Assembly (NCBI GenBank): GCA_037447655.1 | Contig: JBBHKE010001544.1 | Span: forward strand, 362,939 to 426,938 | Source: Zygnema cylindricum | Lineage: Eukaryota; Streptophyta; Zygnematophyceae; Zygnematales; Zygnemataceae | Length of the DNA: 64,000 bases | Direction: 5' to 3' | Part shown: in pieces, positions 36,526 to 63,161 of the stretch | Layout: every line of letters begins with the position of its first letter | Numbering within the stretch: the first letter of the stretch is position 1 | Position numbers and translations under genes: made by a program | Notes under the pieces: model-generated | Databases searched by the model: none | The model's input: only the letters and a program-made list of their open reading frames with translations | Told to the model about the DNA's origin: nothing

Positions 36526-39500
36526 GGTTATGGGCCCACCCTCTAGGGTGCCCACTTTCAAAGGATCTGGGTTCATTTATTGGGAAGCCATGATGATGGG
36601 AGCTTTGTGTGAAAAACGATACTGGGGTATCGTTAGTGGACAAGTGAAACGTCCACCTTCGGGAACTCTGCCATGATTTGGAGGAGTAAGGTTTTCTGCA
36701 TCAGCGACTGCTTCCGCGGAAGAGGCAGATGATGGGGACAGTAGTGTGTCCGAAAAGGGGAAAGAGAAAGAGACACCCCTCACCCCTATTGCCATGGCAC
36801 CAGGAGCGGCGGCCGTGAAGACAGTGGAGAACGATGTTCAAATGTGGGAAGACATAAACATGACTGCCAAGAACTTCATTCTAAGGCATCTCACTCAAGC
36901 ATTGGCCACCTCTCACCTTAATATTTACAAGATCAAGGAGTTGTGGGAAAGTATGGTGGAGATCTATAGAGCTGGTACCACTCTGGATCTTTAGTTGGTT
37001 GAGCAAAAGCTAGTGAGTTACACGTACAAAGGAGGAAAGATGTTAGATTATTGCAATGATCTTTCTTGTTTGTATATGGAGATGGAAAGTGTTGGTTGGA
37101 CAGGCACAATGAAAATGAAAGTAAACACTCTCATCATGAAGTTACCAGACGAGTATGAGAACTTAGTGTACCGAGTACAAGAAATGTCTGAAAGTTCATG
37201 GAAGTGGAATACAGTGGTCAGGATGATACTTGTGCACGAAAATACCCTGGAGATCAGGGGAGGTGGAAAGAGCGTTCAAGCTCTAGCCGGCGGAAAGGAC
37301 AGGTGGAGACCGGAACTGAAAAAACCATACAAAGGAGAAAGAATCCAACCTGGAGGACCGAGGCCCCCAAAGGGCCTATGTCATTTTTGCAAAAAGCCAG
37401 GGCACTTTATTGCGGATTGTGCCAAGCTGGCGGAGCTGAGGCTCAAAGAGAACCAAGGAGGGGGTTCTTCCGAAGGGAAGAAAAAGACACTTTTGGTCAC
37501 AAAGGTGACAGGAGACATCGAGGACAAGTCCTCTGAGGAGGATGGGGAGCTTCTTCTTGACGAGAGTCTGGAGGAGAAGAAGATCCCTCGGAGACAAAAG
37601 TGTGCCGTTGGAGCAATTCGGGAAGCTCCACAGGAAGGATGGATCATCGACTCAGGGCCATCCATGCATATGTGTCGTGATAAGGACCTCTTCACTAAGC
37701 TAAGGAAAATCCCTACTGTAGAAATAGAGTATGGGGATGGGAGAATTGTTACTACAAATCTAGTGGGATCAGTTGACTTGAAAGTTTTAGTGGGGGGTAA
37801 GACTTCTATTATCACTTTCTTAGATGTGCTTTATATTCCTCAGCTAAGTAAAAATCTTGTTTCTACATCTGTGTTAGATGACAAAGAGTTTGATACTTTC
37901 ACTAGAACGGGAGTTTTTACAGCCAAGTATTGGGATGAAGTTTACTTCACTGCAGATAAGGGTAGCCAAAGAATGTTTAGGCTTAACCTGAGTAATGAAA
38001 AGAAGAATACTTACAATGTTGGTGTCCCAAAATTGATGATTTGGCATAAGCAATTGGGGCATGTGCATTTTGATAGGTTGAGGGAGATGAAGAAGCTGGG
38101 GGTGGTAGAAGGCATTCAGTTCAGTGATAATGAAATGGTGGATGATTGTAGTGGTTGTGCCCAAAGAAAAACTCACAGACTTCCTTTTCCTAAAGCCGCC
38201 ACATATAGGGGTAAAAAAGTACTTGATTTGATCCACACAGATATCTGGGGACCAACAAGGGTACCCTCAGTTGGAGGGAAAAGATATATGTTGACAATCA
38301 CTGATTATTGGTCTAGATACTCTAGAGTTTATTTTCTAAAAACAATGTCAGAAACACCAACTTACTTCAAAGAATACAAAGACTGGAGTGAGAAGTTGCA
38401 GGGAACCCCCATTAACAGAATTAGGAGTGATAATAGGGGAGAGTATACCTCTAACCAATTTGAGGAATACTTAAGAGATGAGGGAGTTCAACACCAGAAA
38501 ACTGTACCACATAATCCGGAACAAAATGGTGTAGCAGAAAGGCTAAATCGAACACTAGGAGATAGTGTATGCAGTATGTTGGCTGACAAGAAAATAGGAA
38601 AGAGATTTTGGGCAAAAGCCATGAACTGTGCCAATTACATTAAAAATAGAGTCCTCACATCAGTAGTCAAAGGTATGACACCTTATGAGAGATGGGTTGG
38701 AAGAAAACCATATATCTCTCACCTTAAAGTTTTTGGTAGTCAAGTTTACAGTCTAGATACGGATAAGAAAAACTTGAAACTTGATGCTAAGGGAAAACCT
38801 GGATATTTTGTGGGATATGATGAGGATGTTAAGGGATATAGAGTTTATGACTTAGCAAAGCAAGATATCATTCTGGTAAAACACCTAGTTGTCATGGATG
38901 AAGGAAAGTCAATTGACCCCTTTAAATATACATGAAGATAAGAATCAGGTTTGAGTCCGAGAGTGAGGAGAACTCTGTTTTTCCCGAAAAGGACATGAGT
39001 GATACCGTGATTGCAGATTTAGGGGAGATCTAAGATACAGGAGAGCTACCAGATACCCCACATATTTTCATGGATTTCGAAGAGACAGAAGAGGAGGAAT
39101 CGGAACCATCTTCCATGAATAGGGGAGCTAATGAGACACTAAGGAGGAATCCAAGACTTCCTTCTATTCCAGCTTCAAAATTTGAAAGGGGGAGAAGGAG
39201 CAGCAAAAGGCTACAAAAGAAACATGCTGCTCATAAGGTAACTAAGCTATCACATCTTGATGAGCCTCAGTCATACTTGGAGGCAGTGAACAGTCCAGAA
39301 AAGGACAGATGGATCAGGGCCATAAATGATAAAATGGCTTCCATCATGGAAGCAAATACGTGGGAACTAGCGGATTGCCCTCCAGACAGAAAACCTATTG
39401 GGTGTAAATAGGTCTTTAAACTAAAACTAAACCTTGACAATACCATCGAAAGATATAAGGCTCGTTTGGTGGCAAAGGGTTTCACCCAAAAGGAGGGGAT

Positions 39501-40860
39501 TGACTATGAGGAGACATTCCCCCAAGTTGTTCGTTTCCCATCAGTCAGGATTCTCCTCAGTCTAGCAGCAGCCGAAGACATGGAAATTCATCAGATGGAC
39601 ATTAAGACCGCCTTCCTCAATGGTGAGTTAGAGGAAGAAATCTTCATGAGGCAACCAGAGGGATTTGTGGAGAATGGAGAAGAAAGTAAAGTCTACAAGC
39701 TCATAAAATCCTTATATGGACTTAAGCAGGCTCCACGACAGTGGAATAAGAAACTAGATAAGTTTTTTACTGGTCTACGATATATCAGGATCAACTCTGA
39801 CCATTCTATCTATATGTTTGAGGATGAGAATGGTGTGGTCTTTATTGCAATTTATGTGGATGATTTGCTGGTGTTAAGTAAGTCTTTGGAAAAGATCAAT
39901 AAGTTGAAGAAATATCTTAGAAGCATATTTGACATGAAAGATTTAGGGGAGGCAAGATATATTTTGGGAATTCAAATGGAAAGAGATAGGGGTAAAAATA
40001 TCATAAGACTCACTCAGAAAGAAGCAATAGGAAATATGCTTAAGAAATCTCAAATGGAGAAAGCTAATAGTTGTACCACTCCCATGGACTTGAAAAAAAT
40101 ATGTGATGGGAGTGTAGAAGGGGAAGTGATAATCTTAGATGATCAGATGAGTCCAAAAAAGAGAGAGTTTATGAAGTCTATTCCTTACAGACAGGTCGTA
40201 GGAAGTTTGATCTACTTTATGTACTGTACAAGGCCTGACATAGCGGCAACAAAAGGAGTCCTCCGTAGGAGTCTGAACGATCATAGAAAGAGAGATTGGG
40301 AGGCAGCCAAGAGAGTCATGAGATATCTGGTTGGAACCTGAGAATTATGGTTGAATTTGGGAGGGGAGCACACTGATATCACCAGTTAGATTGATGCCAG
40401 TTATGGGGATGCACCTTTGAGAAGATGCACTTCTGGATATGTTTTAAATGTGGGGGAAGGTGCTTGCTGTTGGAGCAGTAAGCAACAAAAGGTGGTCGCT
40501 CAGTCTACTATGGAGGCTGAGTATATGGCGTCTTGTTCTACTGTAAAAGAACTAATGTGGGTGAAGTCATTATTGCAAGAATTGGAATATATCAAGGAGG
40601 GAGTGCATGAAATCTTTTGTGATAATCAAGCTGCAATCGCAATTTCAGCCAATCCAAAACACCATTTCAAAGCAAAACATATGGACATAAGATTAAGCTT
40701 CGTAAGAGAAAAGTTGAAAATGAAATTTTAAATCTTATGTATAGACCTGATGAAGAAATGGTGGCTGACATACTGACCAAACCTGTGCCCTCTCATAAAT
40801 TAAAATATTGTCGGGAAAAATGCAGGTTGAAAGAAAAATTAAAATTAGACTAGAAAATAA
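36506..40860 (+). pseudogene. Copia 3 gag-pol, interrupted
   Basis: One frame runs from ATG 36506 to about 38930, through a TGA near 36675 and a TAG at 36992-36994. It carries gag, a zinc knuckle CHFCX4HX4C (37379-37420), a protease with DSG (37651), and integrase with its H-H-C-C finger (38043-38160) and Asp, Asp, Glu contexts HTDIWGP, RSDNRGEY and EQNGVAER. A frameshift near 38930 leads to a second frame, with stops near 39031, at 39409-39411, at 40339-40341 and near 40387. It contains RT with YVDD (about 39856) and RNase H (about 40400-40700). A last frameshift near 40706 restores the C-terminus, which ends at about 40851. Gag and Pol were one polyprotein. Confidence 0.88.
36526..36540 (+). 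promoter_or_regulatory. Half-tRNA-type primer-binding site of copia 3
   Basis: GGTTATGGGCCCACC starts immediately after the LTR. All 15 bases are complementary to the anticodon stem-loop region of plant initiator tRNA-Met (GGUGGGCCCAUAACC, known tRNA sequence). Drosophila copia is known to prime from a cleaved half of this tRNA. The site also encodes gag residues. Confidence 0.8.
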
Positions 40861-41906: not shown

Positions 41907-41990
41907 GCCCCTAGGCAATGGAATTTGAAGCTTGATGAATTCTTGGCCAGTCTAGGATTTCAAAGGATAAGTTATGATTACTCCTCCATG
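41907..41990 (+). pseudogene. Remainder of copia 2 RT after copia 3
   Basis: The sequence continues the RT directly after the duplicated AACAG (QAPRQWN, then KLDEF and SLGFQR). It ends around 41990, where opposite-strand copia 4 sequence begins. Confidence 0.8.
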
Positions 41991-44900
41991 GTGGACTGAG
42001 CAATAACCTTTTGCTGTTTGCTACTCCAACAGCAAGCCCCATCACCCACATATAATATATATCCAAAAGTACATCTCCTCATCGGAGTATCACCATAAAT
42101 GGCATCACTCCAAGTAGTGATGTCAGTATTCTCCCCACCCAAATGCAACCATAGATCCCTAGTTCCAATCAAATATCTCAGGACCCACTTAGCTGCCTCC
42201 CTATCACTCTTAGTGGGAGCATTTAGACTTCTACTCATCACTCCTACAACTGCAGCTAAATCCGACCGGGTACAATTCATAAAATAGATTAGACTTCCCA
42301 CTACTTGCCTGTAAGGAATAGTCTGCATAAATTTCTCTTCTTCGGGAGATAATTCTTTGTCTAAGACTATGACTCCTTCTTCCTCACTCCCCTCACTTCC
42401 CTTGTTTAACTCCATTGGAGTTGTACAACTATTAGCTTTATCCATCTGAAATTTTTCAAGCATGTTCCCTATTGCTTTCTTTTGAGTCAATCTTATAATC
42501 TTTCTTTTGGGGTCTCTTTCTACTTGAATTCCCAAAATATATTTTGCTTCCCCCATATCATTCATTTCAAATCTCCCCTAAAGATCGGTTTTCAGTTTAT
42601 TAATTTTTTCCATTGATTTACTTAAAACAAGTAAATCATCAACGTAAATTGCAATATATTTAACACCTTTCTCATCTTCAAAAATATAGATTGAGTTATC
42701 TGAGCTGGTTCGGATATATCCTAGACCGGTGAAAAACTCATCAAGCTTCATATTCCACTGTTGAGGCGCTTGTTTCAAACCATAAAGGGATTTGATCAGC
42801 CGACATACCTTACTCTCTTCTCCTTGCTCCACAAATCTTTCGGGTTCTTGCATGAAGATCTCCTCTTCCAATTCTCCATGCAAAAAGGCTGTCTTAATGT
42901 CCATCTGGTGCACCTCTATGTATTCTGCTGCTGCTAGACTGAGAAGTATGCGGACGGAGGGAAATCTGACAAGCGGGGCAAAGGTTTCCTCGTAGTCGAT
43001 TCCATCTTTCTGTGTAAATCCTTTTGCCACTAATTCGGCTTTGTATCGCTCAATGGTGTTATCCAGGTTCAGTTTAAGTTTGAAAACCCACTTACAACCG
43101 ATTGGTTTTCGCTTAGGTGGACAGTCCAACAGCTCCCAAGTATCGGCTGCCATAATTGAGGCCATCTCCTCATTGATGGCTGTCTTCCACTTGTTCCTTT
43201 CTGGATAAGTCATTGCCTCTCCATAAGTTTGAGGTTCATCTTAATCTGATAGTTTTGTTACTTTGTTGTTAACTTGTTTTTCTTGCAATCTTTTGCTACT
43301 TCTCCTTCCCCCCTCAAAATCTGTAGCCGGAATAGATGGTTCTCGTGAGTTATTTCGAACAATCTCGGCTTCTCCCCTATACATTGATTCCGAATCAATT
43401 TCCCTCACGTCTTTTGCTTTGGGTAGAGTTCTCACTGGAGTTTCTGCAGCCGAGTCCTTTTCAGTCTGATTTGTACCTGCAAGAATGTCATATTCTCTAA
43501 AACCTGGATTGTTAGGTGCTCAAAGTCATCGGAATTTTCTGACTCAAATCTGATTTTTACTGAATTTGTATACTTGAAGGGTTCTACAGACTTTCCTTCA
43601 TCCATAACTACTAGATGCTTTACTAAGGTTATATCTTCCCTTTTTAGATCGTAAAATCTATATCCTTTAACATCCTCATCATATTCTAATAAGTGTCCCG
43701 ATTTTCCTTTAGGATCTAGCTTCTAATTAGACCGATCTATATCTAGACTGAATACTTGACAGCCGAAAACCTTTAAGTGAGATTTGTCTGGTTTTCGGCC
43801 GGTCCATCTCTCAGAAGGTGTTTGATCTTTTATAGCTGAGGTAAGAACTCTATTTTTGAGGTAATTAGCGTAGTTCATTCCTTCGGCCCAAAACCTTTTT
43901 CCTATCTTCTTATCCGATAACATACTTCTAGCACTATCACTTAGTGTCATTTTTAATCGTTCAGCTACCCTATTGTGTTCCAGGTTTTCTGGAACTGTAT
44001 TTTAGTGTTGAACTCCATCTTCCCTCAAAAACTCCTCAAACTGGTTAGAAGTATACTCTCCACCATTGTCACTCTTTACTCTCTTGATTGGAGTTTCAGG
44101 GAGTTTTTCGCTCCATGCTTTATATTGTCAAAAACAATCATGAGCTTCTGACTTGTTTTTCAAAAAATACACCCTGGAATACCGAGACTAATCATCACTT
44201 ATAGTCATCATAAATCTCTTCGCTCCCGGTGAGGGTACTTTTGCCGGTCCCCTAATACCTGTGTGTACTAAATCTATAATTTTTTCTCCCCTATAGGTGG
44301 CTGTTTTGGGAAGGGGCAATCTGTGTGCTTTACCTTAAGCATATCCACTACAATCACTTAGATTCTCACTCTCACTGAACTGAATTCCTTCCACCACTCC
44401 CATCTTTTTCATTAAATCTTTTCAGTACTCTCTAGCTCCTTAAAAAGTGTAGCAACTCATTGCAAAATCCCAACCTCTTCCCCCTTTTGTATACATACTC
44501 CTTAACTTTTTGATCTGCAAACTGTTGTTGCTGATTCGTACTAGTTTGGTACATCTCTATGAGAGCCTTCCAAAGATCGGATGCCCTTTCTACCTGCAAA
44601 TGAGGACATGCTAGTCCTTGAGTAAAATGGCGGAGGATGAAGTGCTTTGCCGCCATATTGTTGAAGTCTTAGGTATCAGTATCATTCTCCTCGTTCCTCG
44701 GAATAGGTGACATAAATGCCGAACCAGTTGCTATTGGTGTGGTCGTCTCTTTCTCCTTTCTCTTGTCCACCACCTCTCCTTCCTTTGTCTCTTCCGTTGA
44801 AGATGGATCTGCATCTTTAGTGAATCTGCCTCCTGTAAATCCTGGAGGTATCCCAAGACAGGATGGACTCCTCACCTGTCCACTCACTATTCCCCAATAC

Positions 44901-46068
44901 CGTTTCTCACATAGAGCTCCTATCATCATGCTTTCCCAGTATATGAAGCCAACTCCATTGAATATGAGCACCCTAGATGGTGGGTCTATAACCTGCAACT
45001 TTGAGACCTCAATGGACCTCAGAGTAAGCAGCTCACACGAAGCCTCAAGGATAACCCTCACCCTTTTGTCTTTCAGCACGAATAATTGCCACCTTGACAA
45101 ACAAAAACTCTGATCACCTTCACCATTGTGAAGGTAAGTCTCCATTGAGTCGATAGCAAAAAGAATCTTTGAGTTTGCTCCCTTGAGCAGTAAATTATGG
45201 AGGGTCAAAGTTGACCTTTTGTACGGAAGCTCTCTGGGAGAGAGGGTCCTATCTACCAATTTTTCTAAGTCCTATCTCTCTCAAAAACTCTATCTACTGA
45301 TGTACGGAACCAATTATATTACTCTTCTGTACACAGAAGTATAGCTGCTGGTGTACTTTCTGTACAGATACTGTACGACATGGCCTAAATGTCGACACGT
45401 GGTATATCCAGATTTGCTCCCTTAATCCCCGAGATGACGCGATCCAATGTCATTCTGCCACGTGTCATCCGATGTGGCGATGACCAAAAACCGCCGAAAT
45501 CCTCTTCCGTGATCTCGGCATTCATTCCGGCCGTCCGATTTAAATGCATATTTAATCGTAGCCGTAATAAATACTTGTGCGATATTCGTTTCACTATCGA
45601 AGCAAACGCGCAGTACTTATTTCTTGTCCGTACATTAATCCGTACTTTTACATAACCGAATCTATGTATCCTGTAAATAGTTTCGGTTAAATAAATTTGT
45701 TAGGATAAAAATGTTTATCTAATTATCAAACCATATGTAATCTAACACTCGTTATAGACTAAATGGATAGAGTTACCGGCTACTGGCAGCTCTGATGGCC
45801 GATAGGTACGAGGATCAAATCCTGGATTCGACAGCTCTACTTTTAGTAAATTAGTAAATCAACTAATTTACTACAGTAAATCAACTAATCTACTACTCGT
45901 AAATCTCAGGATAGCATAGGTAGCCATGGCTCTAGCTTCATCTCAGACTTTTAGTGACTGCAACAAGTGTGGGAGTTGAAGAGAGAAATTAGAGGCAGAC
46001 TGCCTTTGCTTCTTTTCTGTATTTTATTTTAGACCTAGAAAATACTAAAATAACCATCAATTTCAACA
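41978..46068 (-). mobile_element. Copia element 4 (family 2), minus strand, 3'-truncated
   Basis: The 5' LTR is 44994-46068. The primer site GGTTATAGACCCACC (44979-44993) has two changes from that of copia 3. Gag lies at 45259-44432 with stops. A large internal deletion removes the zinc knuckle and protease, so gag runs straight into the integrase (about 44420-43720). Integrase has stops, and Gly replaces the first catalytic Asp (VHTGIRGP). RT with YVDD (43213-42578) is followed by a frame change and RNase H, ending at the QSTMEE stretch near 41985. The RNase H end and the 3' LTR are missing. Confidence 0.87.
44994..46068 (-). repeat. 5' LTR of copia 4
   Basis: The 1075-bp LTR starts TGTTGAAATT (at 46068, minus strand) and ends AAGTTGCA. 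It is clearly related to the copia 3 LTR but diverged. It lies against an older plus-strand LTR fragment of the same superfamily. Confidence 0.85.
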
Positions 46069-47093
46069 TCTAGGTGTAGAGATTTTAAAATAAAAGTCAA
46101 ATAAGGAGACAGTGACAGCTTGCCTCTAACTCATCACTCAAGTCCCCACACTTGTCGTAGTCATTGAATACTTGAGTAGGAGTTAGATCCATGGGTACCT
46201 TGGTTGTCCAAAGAGGACAGGAAGGCAAATCTTGAGAGAGTTACCTAAAATGTTTGACGGACCCGAGATTTGTTCTAAGTACCTGGCGTCCGTCAAATAA
46301 GCCTTCAGCCTGAACCTATAAGTCTATGATTAGTGGTAAGATATAGTAGGTTTGATAAATATATATTTTGTAACACGTAGACTAGTTCATTTAACAGGAT
46401 ATAGATACGTAATGCTTAGATACCGTTTTAGTACGTTTTTAATGTATTATATTAAACGAATACCTCGCATTTGTTTCGAACACGAAATAAATACCGCGTG
46501 TATATTTTCAACGGCTGTAGTTGTTGGCGGTTTTGATCGGACGGCCAAGATAGGCGCCGCGATCATGGAATATGTACTTTTGGCGTTTTATTGTCATCGC
46601 CATATCATGTGACACGTGGAGCGACGTGGTTGGATTGCGGCAACTTTGGAGATTATGGGAACAAATCCGGATATGACATGTGTCGACATTTTGGCCATGT
46701 CGTACAATGGTCGTACAGAAAGTACACCAACACATGTACTTTTCTCTACGACACAATAATGTGATTGATGCCGTACGTCAGTAGATAGAGTTTTAGAGAG
46801 AGATAGGACTAAGAATATTTTGTAGGTAGCAGCTTCTCTCCGAGAGAGCTCTTGTACAAAAGGTCATCTCTGACCATTCATAATTATCAATTTACTTGAC
46901 CATTTCCAGTGATTTTTTTTGTTGCAGACTCAAAGGAGTCCAGGCTACACAAGGGTGTAGTCTGTTAGAGTTTTTTCCAGCCAAGGTGGCTGCATTTTTA
47001 AGGTAAAGTCAAAGTGGGTGAATGTGTCCAAAACATATATTCTAACTTTGCATTCTGTGGTGGAGCTGAGCACACAAAAATTCTTATTTCACA
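46069..47093 (+). repeat. Truncated LTR of a family 2 relative
   Basis: From TCTAGG onward the sequence follows the copia 3 LTR in order (GACAGCTTGCCTC, CCCCACACTTGTCGTAGTC, GATCCATGG, GACGGACC) to about TTTCACA. The first ~30 bp are missing at the junction with copia 4. The sequence after it does not match the usual primer site well. Confidence 0.65.
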
Positions 47094-47185: not shown

Positions 47186-47703
47186 TTGGATCTACGATTT
47201 TTGTGGGCAATGGAGCACACAATGTTTCAGGCGTTACCTCTCATGGATTACCGCGGCCCAACCTATTATCCTGGGGTCAGATTTTGCAATCAAAATAGTT
47301 CTCACAGCAGAGAAATTACAACCTACAACGAAACGTTTATTGACTTCCGCATGCACCACAGAACTAGTCCTCGGAATCACCAAAGAACTAGTTGTTTTCA
47401 ATTCCAAAACAAATCGGAGACAGTTTTCGCAGAAATATATGCCCACGCCTTTGTCACAAAGTGCAGTGATTATGAGTGCCTTGTTGGCCAAGACGTCATT
47501 TTTCGCGTAGGGGGGGGGTGGGGTTGATATGCATGATCAAACATTTTCGTACAGACCTAACAATTTTTCGGAACCCAAAATTTGCTTACCCTTTATCTCG
47601 GCCCGACAACTCATGCCTACTATGGCCCATTCGGCGCTAATCTTGCCAGCCTATGCCGCAGTTGGAATAGGTGCAGACATCATTGAATCTCTTACAGCGG
47701 ATT
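47186..47703 (+). pseudogene. Gypsy aspartic protease domain (decayed)
   Basis: The frame from 47186 contains a weak MDYRGP where D-T/S-G is expected and, near its end, CLVGQDVIFRVGG, which matches the C-terminal LLGxD segment of retroviral-type proteases. A run of G (47511-47519) shifts the frame. The new frame continues with VDMHDQTFSYRPN, the usual following segment, to a stop at 47703. The family is inferred from these C-terminal motifs and from the position upstream of the methyltransferase and RT. Gag was not found; a truncated LTR lies upstream. Confidence 0.6.
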
Positions 47704-47719
47704 AAATCTCACTTGATCC

Positions 47720-47751
47720 CCGGGTTTACTATAATTATTTAGTAAACCCGG
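47720..47751. other. Perfect hairpin between protease and methyltransferase
   Basis: CCGGGTTTACTA (47720-47731) and TAGTAAACCCGG (47740-47751) are perfect 12-bp arms around an 8-base AT loop. Confidence 0.6.
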
Positions 47752-47839
47752 ATTTATCATAAACTCTTCGGAGTTTGACCAGCTTTATAAATTTACTATA
47801 TCGATTCCTTTATCTAGTATTCCAAATCCACCCTCCATT

Positions 47840-48900
47840 ACGATTGATCCGTCCAGGTTCTTGCCCATTAAATGGACACTGGTCAATTTACAACCTCACC
47901 AAAACGGTCTCGTTATCTTCGACCTTTTTGCAGGAATAAGGACTTCACTTCTCTCTTACATTCAAAACGGTCTTCTGATAAAGCATTACTATTCCGTAGA
48001 TATTGACCCTTTACCCAGAGGCACTCAGTTGCACCAGTGTCAAGTCTTGCACGAACAGTATCGCTATCTCTTACCCCAGTCTGCGTTTCAGGATATTCAT
48101 TCGGCGTTGCCACAGGATATCCGGCTAATAGGAAATCATCATTTAATGGAATTGGAACGAATTGATCTCCTCTTTGCCGGATGGGAATGTCAGGGTATGT
48201 GTAGGGCCGGGAAAAGTTTAGGTCTCGCAGATCCGCGTACTAAGTTGTTCTTCGAGGTGGTTCGTCTGATCCACTTCTTCCAAAACTTGGATCGTCCTTT
48301 CAGATACATCTTAGAATATATCGCAGCTTATAATGATCCATGACCCACGGTTCTCGTAGATTACAAACGCAACGAATCATTGATTAGAGCACCTTTAATT
48401 ATCGATGCCGCACGCCACGGTTCAGTGGCCCACCCCGTTCGTTCTAAGTGGACTAACCTGGTGGACATGGGTCGGCTCCGAGAAGCTAACCTCGTTGTCC
48501 GACCACCTAACCTTTCCATTCACGATGCACTTCTTCCATTTCATAAGGTTCAGACCTGTATATAGATAGACTATCCTCCTGCATTTGGTCTTAACATCTC
48601 GGGCCAGCCACTACGTGCACTGCCTACACTAGTGGCATATCCACACTCGCAGGTATACTCACATAATGGACTAAGCATGCTTCTGAATACTCATACAGGC
48701 AGCTTAGAACAACCTTCTGCTGCAAAACGAGAACATCTTTTACATTTCATTTCAGGCACTACTACCGCCCTAAGACTCACCGAGCGGTAGCGCTGCACCT
48801 TACTTGGTTGAGTCATCGATCGCCAATCATTGTTATTCGTCTTGGGCATGGGGTTTGCAACTGGCCGATATGCACAGAATAATCCTTCTCAATCTGCTGG
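47840..48900 (+). pseudogene. Cytosine-5 DNA methyltransferase domain in a gypsy element
   Basis: One frame spans the whole domain. Motif I is DLFAGI (near 47920, SAM binding). Motif IV has the catalytic Cys at 48188-48190 in the context GWECQGMCRAG, with Glu where Pro is usual. LGLADPRTKLFFEVVRLI follows. The ENV position of motif VI reads EYI (48314-48322). IIDAARHG and a target-recognition-like stretch come next. R-x3-LLG-x2-ID and GMGFATGRY match C-terminal motifs IX-X. Stops lie at 48341, 48563, 48788 and 48809. The domain sits between protease and RT in the polyprotein, so it was probably released by the element's protease and could have methylated element or host DNA. It is now inactive. 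Whether it belongs to the Dnmt3/DRM, CMT or bacterial-like branch cannot be told by eye. Confidence 0.85.
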
Positions 48901-51900
48901 GGGGGGGGCATACACCATTTAAACAAACATCATCCAAATCCTCACCTTCTCTTTTGGTTACAATTTTTCAGCTCGATCTTTTTCCTTTCCCCGCTAAGTT
49001 TGACACAGATCACAGTATTTATGATTTTTTGGAACCTAGTCACATGAGTTGGTCTCTCCCACCATACACGGCTGCAAGATCTCAGGTACCGGTACGGGCA
49101 TCACCACACCGGACAACTGCATTTCCGTCTAGAAGTTGGCATCACGCAGTAAATTGTTTGCATCAGTTTCCTGTCGAGTATGAGTTGGGTCACTCCTTGA
49201 TAGCAGATGAACAACTAGCATTTGCACAAGCCAGGGAAACCATGACCATTAACACGCCTGAAAAACCGACATGGAAATTCGGAACTGGACTAACAGAAAC
49301 TGAACACGAACTTTTAGATGAAGTCATAAACCGAAACGTAGACGCATTTGCTTTCTCCCTGAAAGACTTAGGTCGACACACCACTTACAAAATGTCTATT
49401 GACCTGGAAGATGACAGACCTATATTTAAGCCCAAGCATCGTCTATCCGAAACTGAATGGGTATCTGTGGACAAACGTGTAGAAATTAATGGTCTTTTAA
49501 AGAATTTTCTAGGTCTGAATAGAAATAAGAAAGAAGCCGAGGCATGCCTCGTAAAAAAGACGTGGAGGGGAATTATACAGAACGTCGCATGTGTGGGGAC
49601 TATGGAGAACTGAGTTCACGTACAATCCAGGACCGACATCCAATGCCGTTAGCCGAGGATATTTTTGATCACGTGGGCAAAGCTAAATATTTTAGCATCC
49701 TAGATCTTGTTGTTTTTGAAAAGTTAGTTTCGTGCGAACACATCGTTTCGTGCGTACGCGATGTTTCGTGCGTACGCATTTACGCGATATATTGTGGAGG
49801 TTCGAAAGGATTTATGGATTGGGGAATTAAATGTACACATAAAATTAATGAAGTAATTGAGTGGCGCGAAATGTGAGAGGAAATGGACGGCGGATCGCGA
49901 AGCAATCCGACGTGTGATAATCGACGAAGATAAAATGGTACGTCGCACGTACGAAACATAATGCGACAGATGAAAGTTATTACATGGGACGCCGCCGGTA
50001 CGGAGCGTCGTATTTGACAGGTGTACTTTAAGTTGTCGCTTATTGCGACATGCATTTATCGAAAATGACGTGTACCTTAAATGCGACAAGGCGCATTTAT
50101 GACGAAGTACGTGATTTCGGTACGGACAAGATTTGGATCGTACGAATTGATTTCGGCAAGTTGTTCGAGGTACACGTGGAGGGCGGACGACGTCCGCCGA
50201 TATTTTTAAGGGACCACATTGTTTTTATGACACATTATCTAGTGGACCGTACATATGCGATGTCGGTTCACTACGTGGACTTATCCACAAGTGACTAAGC
50301 AAGTTGTCACTTATGACGCGGATTTTTGGATGCGTCGGTGTAAATATTTGAAGCATCAATGTTTTGTCTTATTTGAATTAATGATTTAGTGTTGATTAAA
50401 ATAGTTATATTTTACGTGATTAATGAGGATATCGACACTTTAATTTATGTGTCGTATTTGCAGACAAGTGTACGCTTACGATTGCTTGACTTTCAGGTGT
50501 ACGCTTACGATTAGTTTGATTTAATGACAGTTACGTAATTTACGTTGGTTATTTTGACACTTAGTGATTTGTTAACAGCTCACAAGTGTATATATAGATT
50601 TGAGCTTCATTAGAATAAATAATCAATGCTGGTTAGTAAAGTGGGGACCGAAGATGTAGTATTTTAGGGTTGTCGATTAGGTCATGCACTTTGAATGATA
50701 TAATGATTATTTGATTATACTTTGATTGTACTCTTGTTTATGTGTGATGCATTTGTTTTTATTATTTATTTATGTTATTTTATATATGTTTTGCATTGTT
50801 AATGCATTTGTCCTAGGGTTTGTTTATGTCGATTATTCCATCAAACCTTAGATGATGTCATAGGGTTTATTTATGTTGATTATTCCAAGAAACCCTAAAT
50901 GTTGTTGTATGTTAAATGGAGGATGCATTTCAAATGATTGTTCGTCGACCTATTTTTGCTTAGCTTTTTGCATGATAGTTTGGGTGGCTTCTGCGGTCTA
51001 TTTTAGACCAAAGAACAACAGATCTTGGACAAGGATTTAATCAAATCGAAATAGAGGAAAAATATCGACAAAAAACTGCATTTTGGGGTAGTGATAGACG
51101 TTGGGAATGGGCGGTTATGCCTTTTGGACTGAAAAATGCACCAGTAGGATTCCTGAAAGTCATGGACTCAGTCTTGGGGGGATGTAAGTTTGCCTGTTGC
51201 TATATCGACGATCTAATCATCGCTTCATCCTCTATAGAGAAACATGTCGTGTATATAGAGTGGGTGTTGAAGAAATTAAAAAAGGTAGGACTTAAATGTC
51301 ATCCTGCCAAATATACCGTTGGGGCCGAAGGGGTCCCATACCTTGGGCATTTTATCTCGTCCGAGGGAATTATCCCGCTAGAAGTCAAAGTGGAAGCTAT
51401 TAGTAAACTACCGGCCCCAACTGATTTGATTAGTCTGCGTGCATTTCTAGGGTTAGCCAATATTACCGGTTGTTTGTTCTTAGTTTCGGCACACTTCCAT
51501 CTCCATTAAATGAACTCTTGAAGAAATTTGTCCCCTTCACGTGGGGACCCTCTCAGATCAAGGCATTTCATGATTAAAGGACGCACTGTCCACCACCCCC
51601 ATCCTCCGTCCCCCAAATCATAAATAACCGTTTTGCCTACAAACTGACTTTGGTAAGCCCGGTATTGCCGCTATCCTTAGTCAACGCAAACTCACAGGTG
51701 AGGAATATGTGGTGGCCTACGCTAGTAGAAGCAACAATCAAGCGGAATCAAATTACAGTAGTTACGAGGGAGAATGCCTTGCCGCAGTTTGGGGTATTGT
51801 GCATTTCCGACATTCTCTCTATGGCAAGCCTTTTACCCTTCTTACACACCATTAACCATTGCATTGGCTCATGACCAATGAGAAGCTATCAGGCAAATTA

Positions 51901-52480
51901 GCCCGTTGGGCTCTTATTTTACAGGAATATGACATGGAAATAATCCATCGACCCCGGGCTCCTCAGTTTGAATGCCGAAGGCCTCTCCAACAACCCTTTG
52001 CCCCACTCTAATGATAACGGTGTTCGACAAGATTTTGATGACGAATCAGTTGCCTCCTTATCAACAGGAGCACATCTGATTTACAGTTTGGCAGCACTTA
52101 TAAACCACAAAACCGAACACGATCCATGGCGCGACAGTGCTTTAATTCTTTTTCTATCTACTCTGTCTTTTCTGGCGGGCAACCTATCAATGGAAGAGGT
52201 GCGTGTTCGTGAGAGAGCCCAAAGTTACTTATGGATAATGGGCTCACTTATTCGTCTGCTCTCAGATGGAAGTCATCGGTATGTCCCACGGCCGACGGAA
52301 CGACTATCATTTATCAACCAAATTCATACTGACCTTGGACACTATGGCACCAAACGGACTTTGAGTTTTGTACAGGCACGGTGTTGGTGGTCCGGCATGC
52401 AGGCTGATGTGGCGGCTGTGTTGGAAGAATGCATCACATGTGACCGGCTACGAACTTTATTTTCTAACTGATAGACCTCT
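48900..52480 (+). pseudogene. Gypsy reverse transcriptase, RNase H and integrase finger
   Basis: The RT N-terminus (about 49260-49540: DAFAFSLKDLG, then PIFKPKHRLSE) continues after a frameshift with RRMCGDYGELS and YFSILDL (49590-49707). It is cut by solo LTR B and resumes at 51021 (GFNQIEIEEKYRQKTAF, MPFGLKNAP, YIDD at 51201-51212). The thumb and RNase H lie in shifting frames to about 51950 (AYASRSNNQAESNYS, WALILQEYD). The integrase zinc finger (H-x5-H, then C-x2-C) spans 52320-52450. Frameshifts and stops make this a relic. Domain order and sequence identify Ty3/gypsy. Confidence 0.88.
49708..51020 (+). mobile_element. Solo LTR B (1313 bp) inside gypsy RT
   Basis: It begins TGTTGTTTTTGAAAAG and ends CCAAAGAACAACA, with target duplication GATCT (49703-49707, 51021-51025) placed within the RT LDLGQG codons. 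Sequence and internal repeats correspond to solo LTR A throughout, with indels. It inserted after the gypsy element. Confidence 0.92.
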
Positions 52481-52489
52481 CTTCAACCC

Positions 52490-53595
52490 TTGCCTATTCG
52501 GGTTCTCTTTTACAGGTGGTCGTGTGATCTTGCACTTCCCTTTCCCATTTCTCGAAGGGGCAAACAATGCATCATGATAATGATCGAGAATTTCGTAAAT
52601 GGGTGGAAGTTGTGGCACTCTCGAAGAAAACTGCCAAACTTACCACCGCTGCTTTTAAGGAGCACGTGCTCCTTAGTTATGGAGCCCCCGCAGAAGTACT
52701 TACTGACCAAGGAACCGAGTTCCCTGACGAATTTTAGGAGATGATGGAAAAGGCGTTAATCGATCACCGGCGGACGAGTCGATATCATCCTCAAGCAGAC
52801 GGTTTGGCAGAGAGAGCTGTACAAACCTTTAAGCGTGCTTTGCGTAAACATTGCTTGGAAAAACAGATTACAGTGTGGGATGAATCATTGGGATATATTG
52901 TCATGGGTTATCGCATGTCTGTACAGGCCAGCTTGGCAAATTTCAGCCCCTATTATGTGTTGTTTGGTCGAAAACCACTATTAGGTAGGAATGTACAGAA
53001 AGCCGCGAGCTTACCTCTACCTCTTATGTCTGATTCCCTGTTTTTGGAAGAACTAACTAACCAAGAGTTGCTTTTTGCTAGAGAAATGCCCATGGCTTTT
53101 GATAACATGCAGATTGACCAACATCGCGACTCCTTACGGTTTGCGACGACTCGCGGTGGCAGCTACCAGCCACAACAAAAACCCTTTTGGGTGGGGGATT
53201 ACGTTTATTTGCGACGGCAAACTTTTGACACACTCGACACGGATGTGTCAGCTCACATTTTGAGGATAACCAAAATCGACGCCAATGGATTATTAAGCTT
53301 ACAAGGGGCCGACACGCGAACTTTGCGGGAGCATTCAAAAAATTGTGCTCCTTGCTATCTACTTGACCTTTCCCACAGCATGGACCCGTGGCGGATGCCG
53401 ATTACCGAGGCCACTGAGTGTCAGTTGTGTCGGCAATCCAATGAAGAGACAACAAAGCTTCAATACGACTATTGCAATCTAGGATTCCATATAAAGTGTT
53501 TGGTTCCACTTCTGCACACTATCCCGGCTAGACAGTGGTTTTGCCACGGATGTCGCGACCTACCCGCAGTTTTTACCAGCTCTGCCGCATGCTAA
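52490..53595 (+). pseudogene. Gypsy integrase core and C-terminal PHD finger
   Basis: The integrase core is recognisable from about 52500 (IMIMIENF), with LTDQGTEF near 52700 and HPQADGLAER near 52790. From 52741 the frame is open to the stop at 53593. After an integrase C-terminal segment (VGDYVYLRRQ) comes a PHD finger (53419-53553) with Cys-x2-Cys, Cys, His-x2-Cys and Cys-x2-Cys at the expected spacing. The third zinc ligand is Tyr (TAC, 53464-53466) instead of Cys, which a single G-to-A change would explain. PHD fingers read histone tails, so the domain may have guided integration. That role is inferred. Confidence 0.82.
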
Positions 53596-53607
53596 GGAGC
53601 TTGGGGG

Positions 53608-53854
53608 TGGAAATTTTGTCCTTACTTACCTGACCTTGCTCTGTTTTTTTGAATTTCTTGCTAAGTCTATGTGTTCGAAATAATTTGCTTTTTCCGGCAG
53701 ATTCATTTATTATTTGTTGCGGTATATATATTTTGTACGTGATTGTGGTCACGAATACTGTGCATATGTCATGGTCATTCATTTTCTGGTGATAATCAGC
53801 GACCCAAGTTGGATGTGATGCATGCCATTGATAGTTACACCGTCATGCACGACA
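53608..53854 (+). repeat. 3' LTR of the methyltransferase-gypsy element
   Basis: The 247-bp LTR starts TGGAAATTTTG straight after a polypurine tract (AAGGAGCTTGGGGG, 53594-53607) and ends ATGCACGACA. It is closely similar over its whole length to 54796-55043. No 5' partner was found, because the element is truncated before the protease. Confidence 0.75.
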
Positions 53855-54795
53855 GCTGTCATGCCGTAAAACGTCAATATGTATTATTATTTAATCGCGT
53901 ACTAATTGATGTTTCAGTGACGTGACAGGTTCATATTCGAGAGTACAACTAGAGATACGTACGTGACAAAGTTCGGATTGTACTCCCGTACGACACCGCG
54001 GGAACACGATGTAAAATCAGCATGGAACTGAACCACGGTACAGCATCAAACGCTAAGAGTTCAAACTGCTACAAACTTGACAGGTGTCTGAAGTCATGAA
54101 CCCTAGAAGGTTCATGCATCATTTTTGATTAATTTAGGGAGAGTTTTCATCCTCGAGGTGTAGATGTAAGGCAGTCTAAGGCGACCTTGCAGCGATCGTC
54201 TCTAGAAACTGGCAGCGTTTAACATAGAAACCTGTCTGCTCAAAGACATGTAGGAATTAGTGTAGTTGTATGGATTAGTGACAACATAGGATAAATGCCA
54301 TTTGGCAATATATGAACTTTGCAAAAATTAAGCACGTGAATCCAACATTGGAAGGTTGTCGTTTTCTAGCAAGCATTATTCTCGTGATTTGTCGAACTCT
54401 ATCGCTAGGGTTTTCACCTAAATATTTAGTGACCGTCTAGTTTTTGAGTTAGGGTTTTTCCTTTTTTATACCCATAGTTTCATGATTGTAATTGTCTTTG
54501 AGCTTCTCCTTCTCTTTGTACTAAGACCTTACCTAATCTAGCGGCGCAAGCCAGCATGCAAGGTTTCCCTCTAGACTGTCTTCTACGTGCTGTGGTGGTT
54601 GAATTGCGTCCGTGGACTTGATGTTTCTTGCTGGCAGAGCTCTGACTTTGCAGTCTAGCTCCAGTCTTGTTTAGCTCTGTGGGAATACTAGCTATCTCGG
54701 CTCGTTCGTCCTGTTAAGGAAGGGTTCTTGTTTGTTGGTTGGACTCCTTTAGGAAATATTAAAAGACTTCAGAGCCTAGTGGCTACTATCGCAAA
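53855..54795. other. Stretch between two gypsy LTRs, no gene seen
   Basis: No coding region or known repeat was identified in these 941 bp. Confidence 0.4.
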
Positions 54796-55043
54796 TGGGA
54801 AAATTTCGTCTTTACTTACCTGACCTTACTCTGTTTTTTTAATTTTTTGCTAAGTCTATGTGTTCGAAATAATTTGCTTTTTCGGGCAGATTCATTTATT
54901 ATTTGTTGCGGTATATATGCTTTGTACCCGATTGTGGTCACGAATACTCTACATATGTTATGGTCATTAATTTTCTAGTGATAATCGGCGACCCAAGTTG
55001 GATGTGATGCATGCCATTCACAGTTACACCGTCATGCACGACA
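54796..55043 (+). repeat. Second gypsy LTR, apparently a 5' LTR
   Basis: This 248-bp sequence matches 53608-53854 end to end. It is followed directly by TGGCGCTACAACAG, which has the form of a primer site complementary to a tRNA 3' CCA end. It therefore looks like the start of another, otherwise unrecognised copy of the element. Confidence 0.7.
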
Positions 55044-59220: not shown

Positions 59221-59624
59221 AGAGTTTCCTTATTCAAGCCAGCTTGCTGACTTCAAGATTGTCAATTCATTATTTGCCTTCTCTGTCTCTCTCTAATTCT
59301 TATTGAATCTTTCCTTAGTCATTTCTTTCTGATCCTGTCATATTCTCAAAAAGTTTTAATTTGACACTTACAGCAATTCCTTGGCGCTGCCATTCACGGA
59401 CTATTTAAACATAATTTAAAACATTGTTATCATCACTTGAAATCTACACATCCTCATCTTAACATCACTCTTGTAAAGTAATTCTTGTAATATTTATTCT
59501 TCATTCATATCCATTGGATGTTAACATCTTTCATAACCTAATATTTTTTTGTAATCAGCATGTAATTTTTAACATTCAACCATCATAACTTGATTCATGT
59601 TCTTTGGCACTTGAAGTTGTCATC

Positions 59625-59775
59625 ATTCTTGCATCATCTATTATCATTCTTACGTCATCTATTATCATTCTTACGTCATCTATTATCATTCTTACGTCAT
59701 CTATTATCATTCTTACGTCATCTATCATCATTCTTACGTCATCTATCATCCTTCTTGCATCATCTATTATCATCA
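59625..59775. repeat. 21-bp tandem repeat, about seven copies
   Basis: The unit reads ATTCTTACGTCATCTATTATC with small changes; the outer copies have GCATCA for ACGTCA. The period is a multiple of three, so both strands show open frames that are not genes. Most units carry TTACGTCA, a bZIP-type core. Confidence 0.9.
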
Positions 59776-60464
59776 AACAACATCATCAATTCATCTATAC
59801 TTCAGTCTGGTATTATCACTAGTATCCTTCTACCATCCCCTTGACATCAACTTGCATCAACTTACTTCTAACATAATCATATTCATCAACTTAAAAAAAA
59901 AAAAAAAAAACTTAATTTACTTAATTAACTTTATTAATCTTATTCCTCTTACTCATTAACTTTTTTTTCAACTTTTTTTTTTCTTTTTTTGGTTTTTTCA
60001 CCAAGAACATCGGACACCATCATGCATTCATCTCTTTTTCACACATCATCATACATAAATCACTTTTCATGATTAATGTCAAACTTAATTTTTCATCGGT
60101 CCCATCATTCATCATCATATATCATTTTTCATCATTAACATTACATTGAAATAATACATAAACATCACACATACACCATTTTTCATCATTAACATCATGC
60201 ATACATCATTTTTATAAATTACCATTATCACCATCTCAATGACATTTTCTTGCATTCCTATGTAATTAACTTAACAAACCCTAAAAATCACTAGAATTTC
60301 CGACCTATCCTCTTTTTTCAACTGCCCCCACCCCATGATTCGCCCTGGCTTCCCTTCTATCTCCCTCCTCTCCGAGGCTTACCCCTCCCTCTCCTCCCCC
60401 CTCTTGGGCCCTCCCTGCTTGGTCTCTCGCTCCCCTTCGCCATCGTTTCACCTCTCTCTCTTCC

Positions 60465-63161
60465 TTGTCTAGTTTTTCTTCTCATGGCTCGCCCTCTCTC
60501 ACTATCCCCTCGGTTATTCCGAAATTGACATCCTGTGAAGGCCCTCCCTCTCTCAAGGCAAAATTACCAGTTAGAGAGTTTTCCACTTTTACTAATTTGA
60601 GCTTTTTCTTTTCAATATTTGCTAGAGTTTTAGTTCTCTCTGCCTCTTTTTTTCGAGTTTTGGCCTACTTTGGTGGTAAAAAAATAGTGGTAGATTTCGG
60701 TGGTAAGGTTGGAGGAGTGGATTTGGAGGAAGGAGAGGGAGAGGGAGAGGGAGAGGAAGAGGAAGAGGAGGAGGAGGAGGAGGACGAGGAAGGAGGAGAG
60801 TTTTGGAAAGGACATAAGAAAACATCTATCAAAAGTGGCTCACAACAAAGAAAAAAAAATATTTGGGAGTTAGGGAGATTATTTTCTCGCTCGTTCCTCA
60901 ATTCCTGCTTATATCTCCTTGCGAAACTTCCATTTCTTAGGAAAAAGTTTCCCTTTTTTAAGAAAAAGTTTGTGGAGGAATTATTTCGACCTTTCAAAAA
61001 GCGGATGTTTTTTAGACGGTTAAGGAGATCGGTTTTGGTGATAGCACCTTTGCAATTAATTTGTGTTAGTTTTTGCATATTTGCAGGTAAGTCTCCCTCC
61101 TTTCCCTCCCCTCCTTCCCCTCCCTCCTCTTCCTCCCTCTCCCTCCCATCTCTCCCCTCCCTCCCTCCCTCCCTCCCTCCCTCCCTCCCTCCCTCCCTCC
61201 CTCCCTCCCGGTTTTAGTGAGAGGGATGGAGGGGAGGGAGGGAGGGACGGAGCAGGTGCTGCTTTGCATGCAATTAGTGTTATTTTTTGCATTTTTACAG
61301 GTTAGTCTCTCTCCCTCTTCTCCTCCCTCTCTCCCTCCCCCTCCTCCCTCCCTTCCCTTTTTCCCTTCCACTTCTCCTCCCTCTCCCTCCCGGTTTTGGT
61401 GGGAGGGAGAGGAGGGAGGGAGGAAGGGAGAGGAAAGGAGTGGGAAGGAGACGGAGGGAGGGAGACGGAGGGAGGGAGAGGGAGGGAGAGGGAGGGTGAG
61501 GGAGGGAGAGGGAGGGTGAGGGAGGGAGAGGGAGGGAGAGGGAGGTACAGAGAGGGACTGAGAGAGGGGATGGGGGGGGAGGGGGGAGGGGGGGAGGGGG
61601 GAGGGGGGGAGGGGGAGGGGGGGAGGGGGAGAGGGGGGAGAGGGGGAGAGGGGGAGAGGGGGAGGGGGGGAATGGAGAGGGGGAGAGGGGGGAGAGGGGG
61701 AGAGGGGGAGGGGGAGGGGGAGGGGGAGGGGGAGGGGGAGGGGGAGGGGGAGGGAGGGGGAGGGGGAGGGGGAGGGGGGAGGGGGAGGGGGAGGGGGGGA
61801 GGGGGGGAGGGGGAGGGGGAGGGGGAGGGGGGGAGGGGGAGGGGGGGAGGGGGAGAGGGGGGAGAGGGGGAGAGGGGGAGAGGGGGAGAGGGGGGGGAGA
61901 AGGGGGAGAGGGGGAGAGGGGGGAGAGGAGGGAGGGGGAGGGAGGGGGAGGGAGGGAGAGGGAGGTACAGAGAGGGACTGAGAGAGACAGAGTTAGAGAC
62001 TGAAAGAGATTTAGAGAGGAGAGAAGAGGAGAGAGTGATAGAGAAACATTTTTTGAAACTGTTATCTTTTTTGTGTTTGGTCGCAACACAAAAAAATGCA
62101 GGTGTCTATGCGACGATCAGCGAGTGTGCCACGCTATTTCCATGGGGGGAGAGAGGGAGAGAGAGGGAGAGAGAGGGAGAGATAGGGAGAGACAGAAAGC
62201 GAGTGGAGAGGAGAGTAGAGGGAGAAAGAAACAATTTTTTGAAACTGTTAATTTTTTTGTTTTTGGTCGCGAAAACAGCTGTCTATGCGACGACCAACGA
62301 GTGTGCCACGCTAGTTCTATGGGGACTGTTTTTGGCCGGTTCCGTTGGAGGACTCCGACTCTTTTGGTTTTTTGGGACGGGATGGTCTCAAGTCCTTGTG
62401 GCATCGAGTGTTTTGAAAGGATTGAGTCGGGAGGAAAAAGACGGAAACGATGAGGTGGCGGCTCGATTGCAACGTCGTGTAAGCGGTTTTCCTTTTTTCT
62501 TGTCTCGTTTTTTTTGTTGAAATCGTCTCCGTATGCTTTACTTTTCATTTCAATCTCTATTTCTTTTGTGTTCTTTCGTTTTCTTTCGTTTTCTTTGTAT
62601 AATTTTGTTTTGTTTTTTCTTTTTCTTTTGTTTCCCCTGCCCCTTTTCCCGGCGCCTCTCCCTCTACTTCTCCCTCTCTTCCTCCCTCTCCCACCCCTTC
62701 TTTTGCGTTGCTTTCTTCCCCTTGTTTTGCTTCTTTTCCTTCCTCTTTGTTCTTTGTCCTTTTTTTTTTCCTCTTTTGGCTTCATTTCCTTTTCCTTTTA
62801 GTTTTCCTTTCCTTCCATTTTCTTTCATTTCCTTTCCTTCCCTTCCTTTTTTTTTTTGCTTTTTCATTTTCGTCACGTGTAGATATCTTTGTGGATCAAA
62901 TCAAGAAAAAAGCGGTTCTATATACTTTTTGTTCCTTCCTTACTTTTTGCCGATAAAGAGTTCTGGACATGGTTGAATCTTAGGAGTTTAAAGTACTTGA
63001 ATTTTTTTTGTTTCGATGAATGTAAAGGTATAATTGTTCTGAAAGGGACGACTCTCCTACGATTGACGGTTATTTCCTCCTTGCCCCAAAACTTCACAAA
63101 CGAATTAGGCAATCTCACACTCTCTCAATTCTCGACACTCAAACATGTTTTTTCTGCATGA
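60465..63161 (+). CDS. Possible multi-exon membrane protein, unassigned
   Basis: Three segments join in phase. The first ends at 61086 before a GTAAGT donor; its frame is open from 60465 but its true start is unknown. The second is 62279-62478, between a CAG acceptor and GTAAGC. The third runs from 62883 (after TGTAG) to a stop at 63159-63161, or to an internal donor near 63026. The first has an acidic Glu-rich run, then a basic stretch with Lys-Lys, Phe and Arg-Arg, and a hydrophobic segment near its end. The second opens with a hydrophobic stretch ([17 protein letters not shown]) followed by a charged region. The family is not recognised. Coding status rests on phase and splice-site agreement; chance open frames are possible in this repetitive area. 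Confidence 0.35.
61090..62230 (+). repeat. Polypyrimidine then very long polypurine tract
   Basis: CCCT repeats dominate 61090-61208. From about 61400 to 62230 the plus strand is almost only G and A, with GGGGGA and GGGAGA repeats and long G runs, interrupted by a duplicated unique block at 62040-62150. It can form triplex or G-quadruplex structures. Long open frames across it are repeat artefacts. Confidence 0.9.
62053..62325 (+). repeat. Duplicated exon-boundary block
   Basis: TTTTTTGAAACTGTTA through TGTCTATGCGACGA and GAGTGTGCCACGCTA occurs at about 62047-62145 and again at 62236-62330. The second copy contains the start of the putative exon at 62279. The first copy also has a CAG acceptor in the same phase but runs into the purine repeat. 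Confidence 0.7.

Follow-up and report, generated by a model that had tools for sequence, protein, structure and literature searches.

The window, a stretch of 64,000 nucleotides from Zygnema cylindricum (assembly GCA_037447655.1, contig JBBHKE010001544.1, positions 362,939 to 426,938 of the forward strand), harbors an element whose anatomy is nearly certain: a decayed, 5'-truncated Gypsy-type copy from a family with many relatives in the same genome. Its parts are listed below in window positions. L009, with which they were compared, is another copy of this family.

47227..47720, + strand: aspartic protease remnant, frameshifted, and 5' limit of the element in the window; blastn to L009 begins at 47227, tblastn aligns 47250-47720 with L009 residues 721-876 (65%)
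47720..48907, + strand: Dnmt3-type C5 methyltransferase region with three in-frame stops; PF00145 6.3e-11, 85% to L009 residues 877-1272, best PDB relative DNMT3A (1.8e-7)
47921..47938, + strand: motif I DLFAGI, from sequence reading
48188..48190, + strand: codon of the catalytic Cys in motif IV GWECQG, from sequence reading and comparison with DNMT3A
48900..49708, + strand: linker and N-terminal part of the reverse transcriptase (RT); tblastn to L009 at 48900-49481 and 49544-49708
49708..51020, + strand: nested insertion of 1.3 kb resembling a solo LTR (TGTTGTT...AACAACA, flanking GATCT), foreign to the element, splits the RT
51021..51461, + strand: RT core with YIDD; RVT_1 9.3e-22 on 50979-51509, tblastn 88%
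51517..51954, + strand: RNase H; tblastn 84% to L009 residues 1704-1849, the stretch with the RT_RNaseH match in L009
51953..53400, + strand: integrase with H2C2 zinc domain, core and C-terminal part, frameshifted; Integrase_H2C2 2.5e-14, 84% and 90% to L009
53419..53553, + strand: PHD finger with Tyr as third zinc ligand; PF00628 5.8e-6, WSTF PHD in PDB 1.1e-7
53594..53607, + strand: polypurine-like tract directly 5' of B1, a motif shared with other copies (see below)
53608..53854, + strand: repeat B1, 3' end CATGCACGACA, from repeat comparison
53855..53856, + strand: GC between B1 and A2, within the palindrome GACA-GC-TGTC, from sequence reading
53857..54797, + strand: repeat A2, 5' start TGTCATGCC, A1 not found; 53857-54785 aligns with the C1344 A repeat at 84.8%
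54798..55043, + strand: repeat B2, 3' end of the element with terminal GACA; 92.6% to B1

Two Copia-like regions are also present in the window.

Pfam searches of the separate open pieces of the window placed DNA_methylase at 47735-48343, RVT_1 and Integrase_H2C2 (51944-52471) behind it, and the PHD finger at residues 228-272 of the frame 52738-53595, scoring 26.7 bits (cut-off 24). With tblastn, the L009 frame aligned to the window in nine pieces of 53-91% identity, which run from protease to PHD finger in the same order; identity amounts to 85% for the methyltransferase and to 90% from integrase core to PHD finger. A preliminary description of this DNA had put a methyltransferase behind the protease and ahead of RT, with a PHD finger following the integrase, and had set a DNA_methylase match as a test; order, match and the motif DLFAGI were all recovered. 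The catalytic Cys that it had read in GWECQG is present as well, but Glu stands in place of the Pro that is usual directly before the motif IV Cys. Likewise, its PHD finger exceeds the cut-off but has Tyr as third ligand, where L009 has Cys. The proposed span of 47186..53854 had to be corrected, as the first homologous position is 47227 and the element extends to 55043. In addition to this altered zinc ligand, the window copy is marked by stops, frameshifts and the insertion in RT, and its 5' part is absent; neither the A1 repeat nor gag was found in the window, and the copy is therefore regarded as 5'-truncated.

Within the same assembly (353 Mb), 782 PF00145 candidates were obtained; 123 were scored and all 123 lay above the cut-off, host genes possibly included. 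We examined 29 copies, chosen mostly for long frames. One of them, L009, encodes protease, methyltransferase, RT, RNase H, integrase and PHD finger in a single frame of 2395 aa, in which Pfam recognizes the Gypsy order protease-RT-RNase H-integrase (rve 1.7e-11, RT_RNaseH 2.6e-34, the protease match of 0.012 being under its cut-off). A PHD finger was detected in 20 of the 21 copies having an integrase C-terminus, and the remaining one runs off its locus. The copies form two subfamilies, whose RTs are 44-49% alike and in both of which the integrase domains are conserved. Trees of methyltransferase, RT/RNase H and integrase-PHD, for which 9 of the 29 copies were dropped as being without three quarters of a domain, were mutually congruent. 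This congruence indicates that methyltransferase and PHD finger are ancestral parts of the element. The rearranged and broken state of the window copy might point to separate late insertions or to a chimaera of neighboring window genes, but such an origin is refuted by open frames at other loci that keep this order, and by the congruent trees, and we give it practically no credence. As the preliminary description had supposed, both domains belong to one element; its refuting case, later insertions with boundaries of their own, was not borne out.

Flanking sequences were fetched for four copies, three of which, all of subfamily 1, were complete at both ends; in the fourth, C1407 (L010), no recognizable A1 repeat was found. 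The three complete copies share the layout A1-coding-B1-GC-A2-B2, with A at the 5' end and B-GC-A-B at the 3' end, and no full repeat is identical at both ends as it would be in LTR elements. In each of them a 4-bp target duplication, TGTC...GACA ends and the palindromic joint GACA-GC-TGTC are present. A-repeat pairs are 99.5-100% identical in three copies, which marks these as recent. What had been taken for a 247-bp LTR (53608-53854) is no such LTR; it is B1 of the block B1-GC-A2-B2, the repeats being split in a DIRS-like manner. The B1-joint-A2 layout occurs in both subfamilies (L021, L025, L027, L042) and a polypurine-like motif precedes B1 in 19 of the 29 copies, with G-runs also elsewhere in these elements; the motifs for joint and purine tract were composed after viewing such sequences, and their counts are not independent tests.

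An ordinary LTR Gypsy element with A-B (A2-B2) as true LTR, in which B1, like the absence of B after A1, arose by accident in a founder copy that was later amplified, would account for the LTR-like TGTC...GACA ends of A2-B2. However, the purine tract precedes B1 and not A2, the B1-joint-A2 layout is shared by subfamilies with RTs so little alike, and we reason that ordinary reverse transcription would not regenerate two ends of which one has A-B and the other just A, which renders this explanation distinctly unlikely. Split direct repeats also mark PAT, Ngaro and VIPER in the published descriptions (PMC4157794, PMC6681497), and a tyrosine recombinase of the DIRS/PAT/Ngaro type might integrate the circular cDNA here, with the DDE integrase as a passenger. 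No tyrosine recombinase match was found in the four L009 frames of at least 110 aa, a scan outside which A1 and the far 3' ends lie; the target duplications of 4 bp that all three complete copies show and the integrase domains conserved in both subfamilies argue against it as well, and we consider a recombinase-driven cycle highly improbable.

The split end repeats rather suggest an insertion from a circle, a presumed intermediate. First, ordinary reverse transcription would yield LTRs of the form B-GC-A, for which the purine tract before B1 speaks; a candidate PBS-like TGG is located near the A end, roughly 18-25 nt away from where A meets B. Second, the cDNA would close into a two-LTR circle in which A is joined to B, in agreement with layout and ends. 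Third, the DDE integrase would open this circle at the internal palindromic GACA-GC-TGTC, whereby GC is lost and A1...B2 inserted, a mechanism in agreement with the 4-bp duplications found in all three complete copies. For these three steps the chances seem about even.

The methyltransferase is nearest to Dnmt3 in sequence and fold, with canonical motif order (structure model pLDDT 63.7). Protein searches with the decayed window methyltransferase as query (182 and 3331 candidates) returned no homologs elsewhere at E 1e-3, and viral contigs contained no match to it or to integrase-PHD. In the alignment, the catalytic Cys is present in 29/29 rows. All 13 rows of subfamily 2 have WPCQG and ENV; in subfamily 1, Glu precedes the Cys (ECQG) in 16 of 16 rows and Pro in none, so that the activity predicted for the subfamily 1 enzyme is uncertain. 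First-pass dN/dS estimates left out pairs with dS <0.05 or saturation. Values of 0.3-0.56 for the methyltransferase come from several pairs of low dS or with decayed copies, among them L015-L016 (0.44), L038-L019 and L038-L039 (both 0.56). In cross-subgroup pairs such as L009-L011, whose silent sites are saturated, dN was 0.16 for the methyltransferase versus 0.07 for RT, and the methyltransferase thus evolves faster than RT.

For the PHD finger, dN/dS was 0.32 in L012-L013, both open frames, and 0.84 in L016-L040, a pair of low dS or with decayed copies. These values and those of the methyltransferase weigh against the interpretation favored below. All eight open rows aligned keep eight of eight C4HC3 zinc ligands, and a ligand is changed in 5 of 20 PHD fingers (L028, L039, L040, L041 and the window copy). 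In subfamily 2 the domain is weak, with two matches under the cut-off (2.4e-4 and 4.4e-3) and L042 at 24.1 bits against 24. The structure model of integrase-PHD was poor (pLDDT 42) and no conclusions are based on it.

The observed/expected ratio of CpG came to 0.82 over the window as a whole. In subfamily 1 it reached 0.89 for the L009 frame, 0.87 for the A repeat of L009 and 0.84-0.87 for the window copy; it was lower in subfamily 2 (frames of L012 0.62 and L013 0.63, L042 locus 0.70). The self-silencing by self-methylation that had been proposed for the element is unsupported, as subfamily 1 CpG stands at 0.84-0.89 of expectation versus 0.31 and 0.43 in the two Copia-like regions; the CpG content of subfamily 1 bears no trace of long-term self-methylation at CG, a hint from few elements. 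C-to-T changes in the window copy were counted at positions where L009, L018 and L028 agree, and amounted to 44/445 in CG, 54/454 in CHG and 84/1415 in CHH (CHG versus CHH p = 7e-5, CG versus CHH p = 0.005). CG transversions were raised as well (31/445, p = 0.005), and the CG figure is therefore not pure deamination. The CG and CHG excess in this dead copy can reflect host-type methylation made by the host and is uninformative on the element's own enzyme.

In an element of the same anatomy, the methyltransferase could be non-methylating and retained in Pol for binding DNA or RNA. The Glu before the Cys and the retained CpG of subfamily 1 agree with this, as does KnitGypsy-Dnmt3 of Klebsormidium nitens, which gave no methylation in yeast, a result called inconclusive by its authors (PMC5890265). 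The catalytic Cys in every row and the intact motifs throughout subfamily 2 speak against it, and we regard a purely binding role as rather unlikely. Least supported in the circle-based scheme is its fourth step, in which an active methyltransferase and the PHD finger would take part: judging from sequence and fold, the PHD finger may tether the integration complex to histone H3 tails, and the methyltransferase may methylate the newly made DNA prior to or during its insertion, so that this DNA would arrive marked like that of the host. With these roles included, ordinary reverse transcription to a B-GC-A LTR followed by DDE integration of a circle opened at the joint is the course of events that we modestly favor. 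That the family is a lineage with a DIRS-like circle-based cycle, in which an ordinary DDE integrase cuts an internal palindrome and not LTR ends, with its own methylation writer and histone reader, is a serious possibility that falls somewhat short of probable. If true, this lineage would represent a living intermediate that links LTR with tyrosine-recombinase retrotransposons, and it would hint that methyltransferases accompany circular integration intermediates. With a writer and a reader of chromatin in one Pol, the family offers a natural setting in which to test how elements control their own silencing.

Chromoviruses are Gypsy elements with a chromodomain after the integrase. They share with the Zygnema family a chromatin-reading domain at the integrase C-terminus; here it is a PHD finger instead, accompanied by a methyltransferase and split repeats. 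PAT, Ngaro and VIPER have A1-coding-B1-A2-B2 repeats (PMC4157794, PMC6681497), but are described as lacking an integrase gene (PMC4157794), whereas the Zygnema family has an integrase and 4-bp target duplications. Split direct repeats are given as diagnostic of several tyrosine-recombinase elements (PMC4157794), and some DIRS-group elements carry a methyltransferase (PMC4157794, PMC6681497). Since the split repeats of the Zygnema family are combined with a DDE integrase and target duplications of 4 bp, the layout can exist without a recombinase. An origin of DIRS-type elements by union of a recombinase with the RT/RNase H of a Gypsy element, a proposal cited in PMC6681497, becomes testable in a genome with recent copies. 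SymbioDIRS-Dnmt3 of Symbiodinium resembles the family in the Dnmt3 domain within Pol and in its A-coding-B-A-B repeats, but is described with a tyrosine recombinase in place of the DDE integrase (PMC5890265). KnitGypsy-Dnmt3, compared through its published description, has a non-rearranged Dnmt3-type methyltransferase in a Gypsy Pol, reported to be under purifying selection, and a DIRS-like repeat layout with Gypsy domains (PMC5890265, Fig. 4c legend). The preliminary description had thought the combination of methyltransferase and PHD finger possibly undescribed; a Dnmt3 in a Gypsy Pol is already published. The PHD finger of the Zygnema family, with 0 occurrences in the main text of that article, and the circle-type integration by a DDE integrase may be undescribed, the latter, like the target duplications and the GACA-GC-TGTC joint, not being seen in that description of KnitGypsy-Dnmt3 (PMC5890265).

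The domain order that the preliminary description had claimed is real: protease, C5 DNA methyltransferase (MTase; shown here to be of Dnmt3 type), reverse transcriptase (RT), RNase H, integrase and PHD finger. This was verified by Pfam matches on separate open pieces of the window (DNA_methylase, 6.3e-11; RVT_1, 9.3e-22; Integrase_H2C2, 2.5e-14; PHD, 5.8e-6) and by comparison with the 2395-aa frame of L009, a family copy in the same assembly, which the window matched in nine pieces (53 to 91% identity) that run in the same order from protease and MTase through a linker, RT, RNase H and integrase to the PHD. The window copy is dead, because its MTase contains three in-frame stops, frameshifts are present, the third PHD zinc ligand is Tyr and the RT gene carries a solo-LTR-like insertion. 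Family homology starts at 47227 and neither gag nor an A1 repeat was found within the window on comparison with family copies; the window copy is therefore 5'-truncated.

The insertion (49708-51020; TGTTGTT...AACAACA, with TG...CA ends, flanked by GATCT) is 71.5% like 34562-35795. An inverted repeat (45193-45430 and 46648-46885; 238 nt, 80% complementary, 1217 nt between) sits just 5' of the truncated element. Gag-pol pieces judged Copia-like on visual inspection occupy 293-1906, 31613-34002, 36995-40341 and 41978-43240, with strong CpG loss in the first (0.43 observed/expected) and the third (0.31). Long Copia-like inverted repeats in opposite orientation were found at 38087-39986 and 42513-44412 (72-73% complementary), a 21-base-spaced tandem repeat at 59601-59794 and a long, purine/pyrimidine-asymmetric low-complexity stretch at 61066-62116.

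The assembly (352,776,454 bases, 2689 contigs) yielded 782 candidates in a PF00145 search; 123 were scored and all, the window copy included, lay above the cut-off, possibly with host genes among them. Together with the window copy, 28 stretches around PF00145 matches (20 of 10 kb, 8 of 5 kb), picked mostly for long open frames, were compared, and these 29 copies split into two subfamilies with between-subfamily identities of 37-42% (MTase) and 44-49% (RT). L009 is a single frame from zinc knuckle through PHD, and two copies of subfamily 2, L012 and L013, are open from MTase to PHD (1525 and 1520 aa). The PHD was found in 20 of the 29 copies, five of them with an altered zinc ligand; for eight of the remaining nine the stretch examined lacks the integrase C-terminal part, and in the ninth, L019, the PHD extends past the end of the locus. 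In L028 protease-MTase is inverted relative to RT-integrase-PHD; this is either one copy that has been rearranged or a back-to-back pair.

Trees of MTase, RT plus RNase H, and integrase plus PHD were calculated from the 20 copies in which each of these regions was sufficiently covered. The groups {L025, L042}, {L012, L013, L021, L027}, {L011, L026} and {L019, L038, L039} were common to all three, and {L015, L016, L017, L040} was recovered too, with integrase tree support slightly under the mark (92/95). MTase and PHD therefore travelled with Pol, and their union in one element, as first described, proved to be ancestral. The window copy groups with L009, L010, L018 and L028: the integrase tree supports this set (97/93), and in the MTase and RT plus RNase H trees its members are the rows remaining at an open fork. 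Among 24 hand-picked pairs, dN/dS was 0.08 (L009-L014), 0.14 (L012-L013) and 0.18 (L009-L018) for the MTase and 0.12 (L009-L018) and 0.32 (L012-L013) for the PHD, with higher values (up to 0.56 and 0.84, respectively) in low-dS or decayed pairs. The residue before the Cys of motif IV is usually Pro; L009 and other subfamily 1 copies have Glu in its place (ECQG), and despite this the subfamily 1 MTase has low dN/dS in some pairs.

The family carries split direct repeats, A and B, of which the window copy retains three:

53608-53854, repeat B1
53857-54797, repeat A2
54798-55043, repeat B2

Flanks were obtained for four copies. C1344, C829 and C1915 start with A1 (931, 1385 and 1475 bp), end with B1-GC-A2-B2 and have A1-A2 identities of 100, 99.7 and 99.5%; their termini are TGTCATGCC... 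at 5' and ...CATGCACGACA at 3', flanked by the 4-bp repeats TTGG, AAGG and CCCT. C1407 (L010) has B1-A2-B2, and no A1 was found within the 14 kb examined. The internal joint GACA-GC-TGTC is a perfect palindrome. Scans with motifs composed after such sequences had been seen located the joint in 12 of 29 copies, drawn from both subfamilies (in one of them AC replaces GC), and placed a purine tract directly before B1 in 19 of 29.

This purine tract suggests that plus-strand synthesis would start at B, giving a cDNA LTR of B-GC-A; the end of A might, tentatively, be read as primer site. From the repeat layout we infer that opening a two-LTR circle at the GC within one of its LTRs would produce the inserted form A-coding-B-GC-A-B. 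The DDE integrase is the putative cutter, since target duplications and TGTC...GACA ends fit. For the MTase and PHD, presence and conservation are what the data show; as their roles, we propose that the PHD may hold the integration complex on H3 tails and that the MTase may mark the new DNA. Methylation of cDNA as self-marking or protection was discussed for DIRS-type elements by de Mendoza and co-authors (PMC5890265).

By description, the window family fits the published KnitGypsy-Dnmt3 of Klebsormidium nitens, a Gypsy Pol containing Dnmt3 with DIRS-like repeats (PMC5890265); the term PHD does not occur in the main text of that paper. Split repeats are described for PAT, Ngaro and VIPER, and a Gypsy-plus-recombinase origin has been proposed (PMC4157794, PMC6681497). 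As far as a limited literature search goes, possible novelties are the PHD finger, the combination of 4-bp target duplications and a palindromic joint, and the circle reading.
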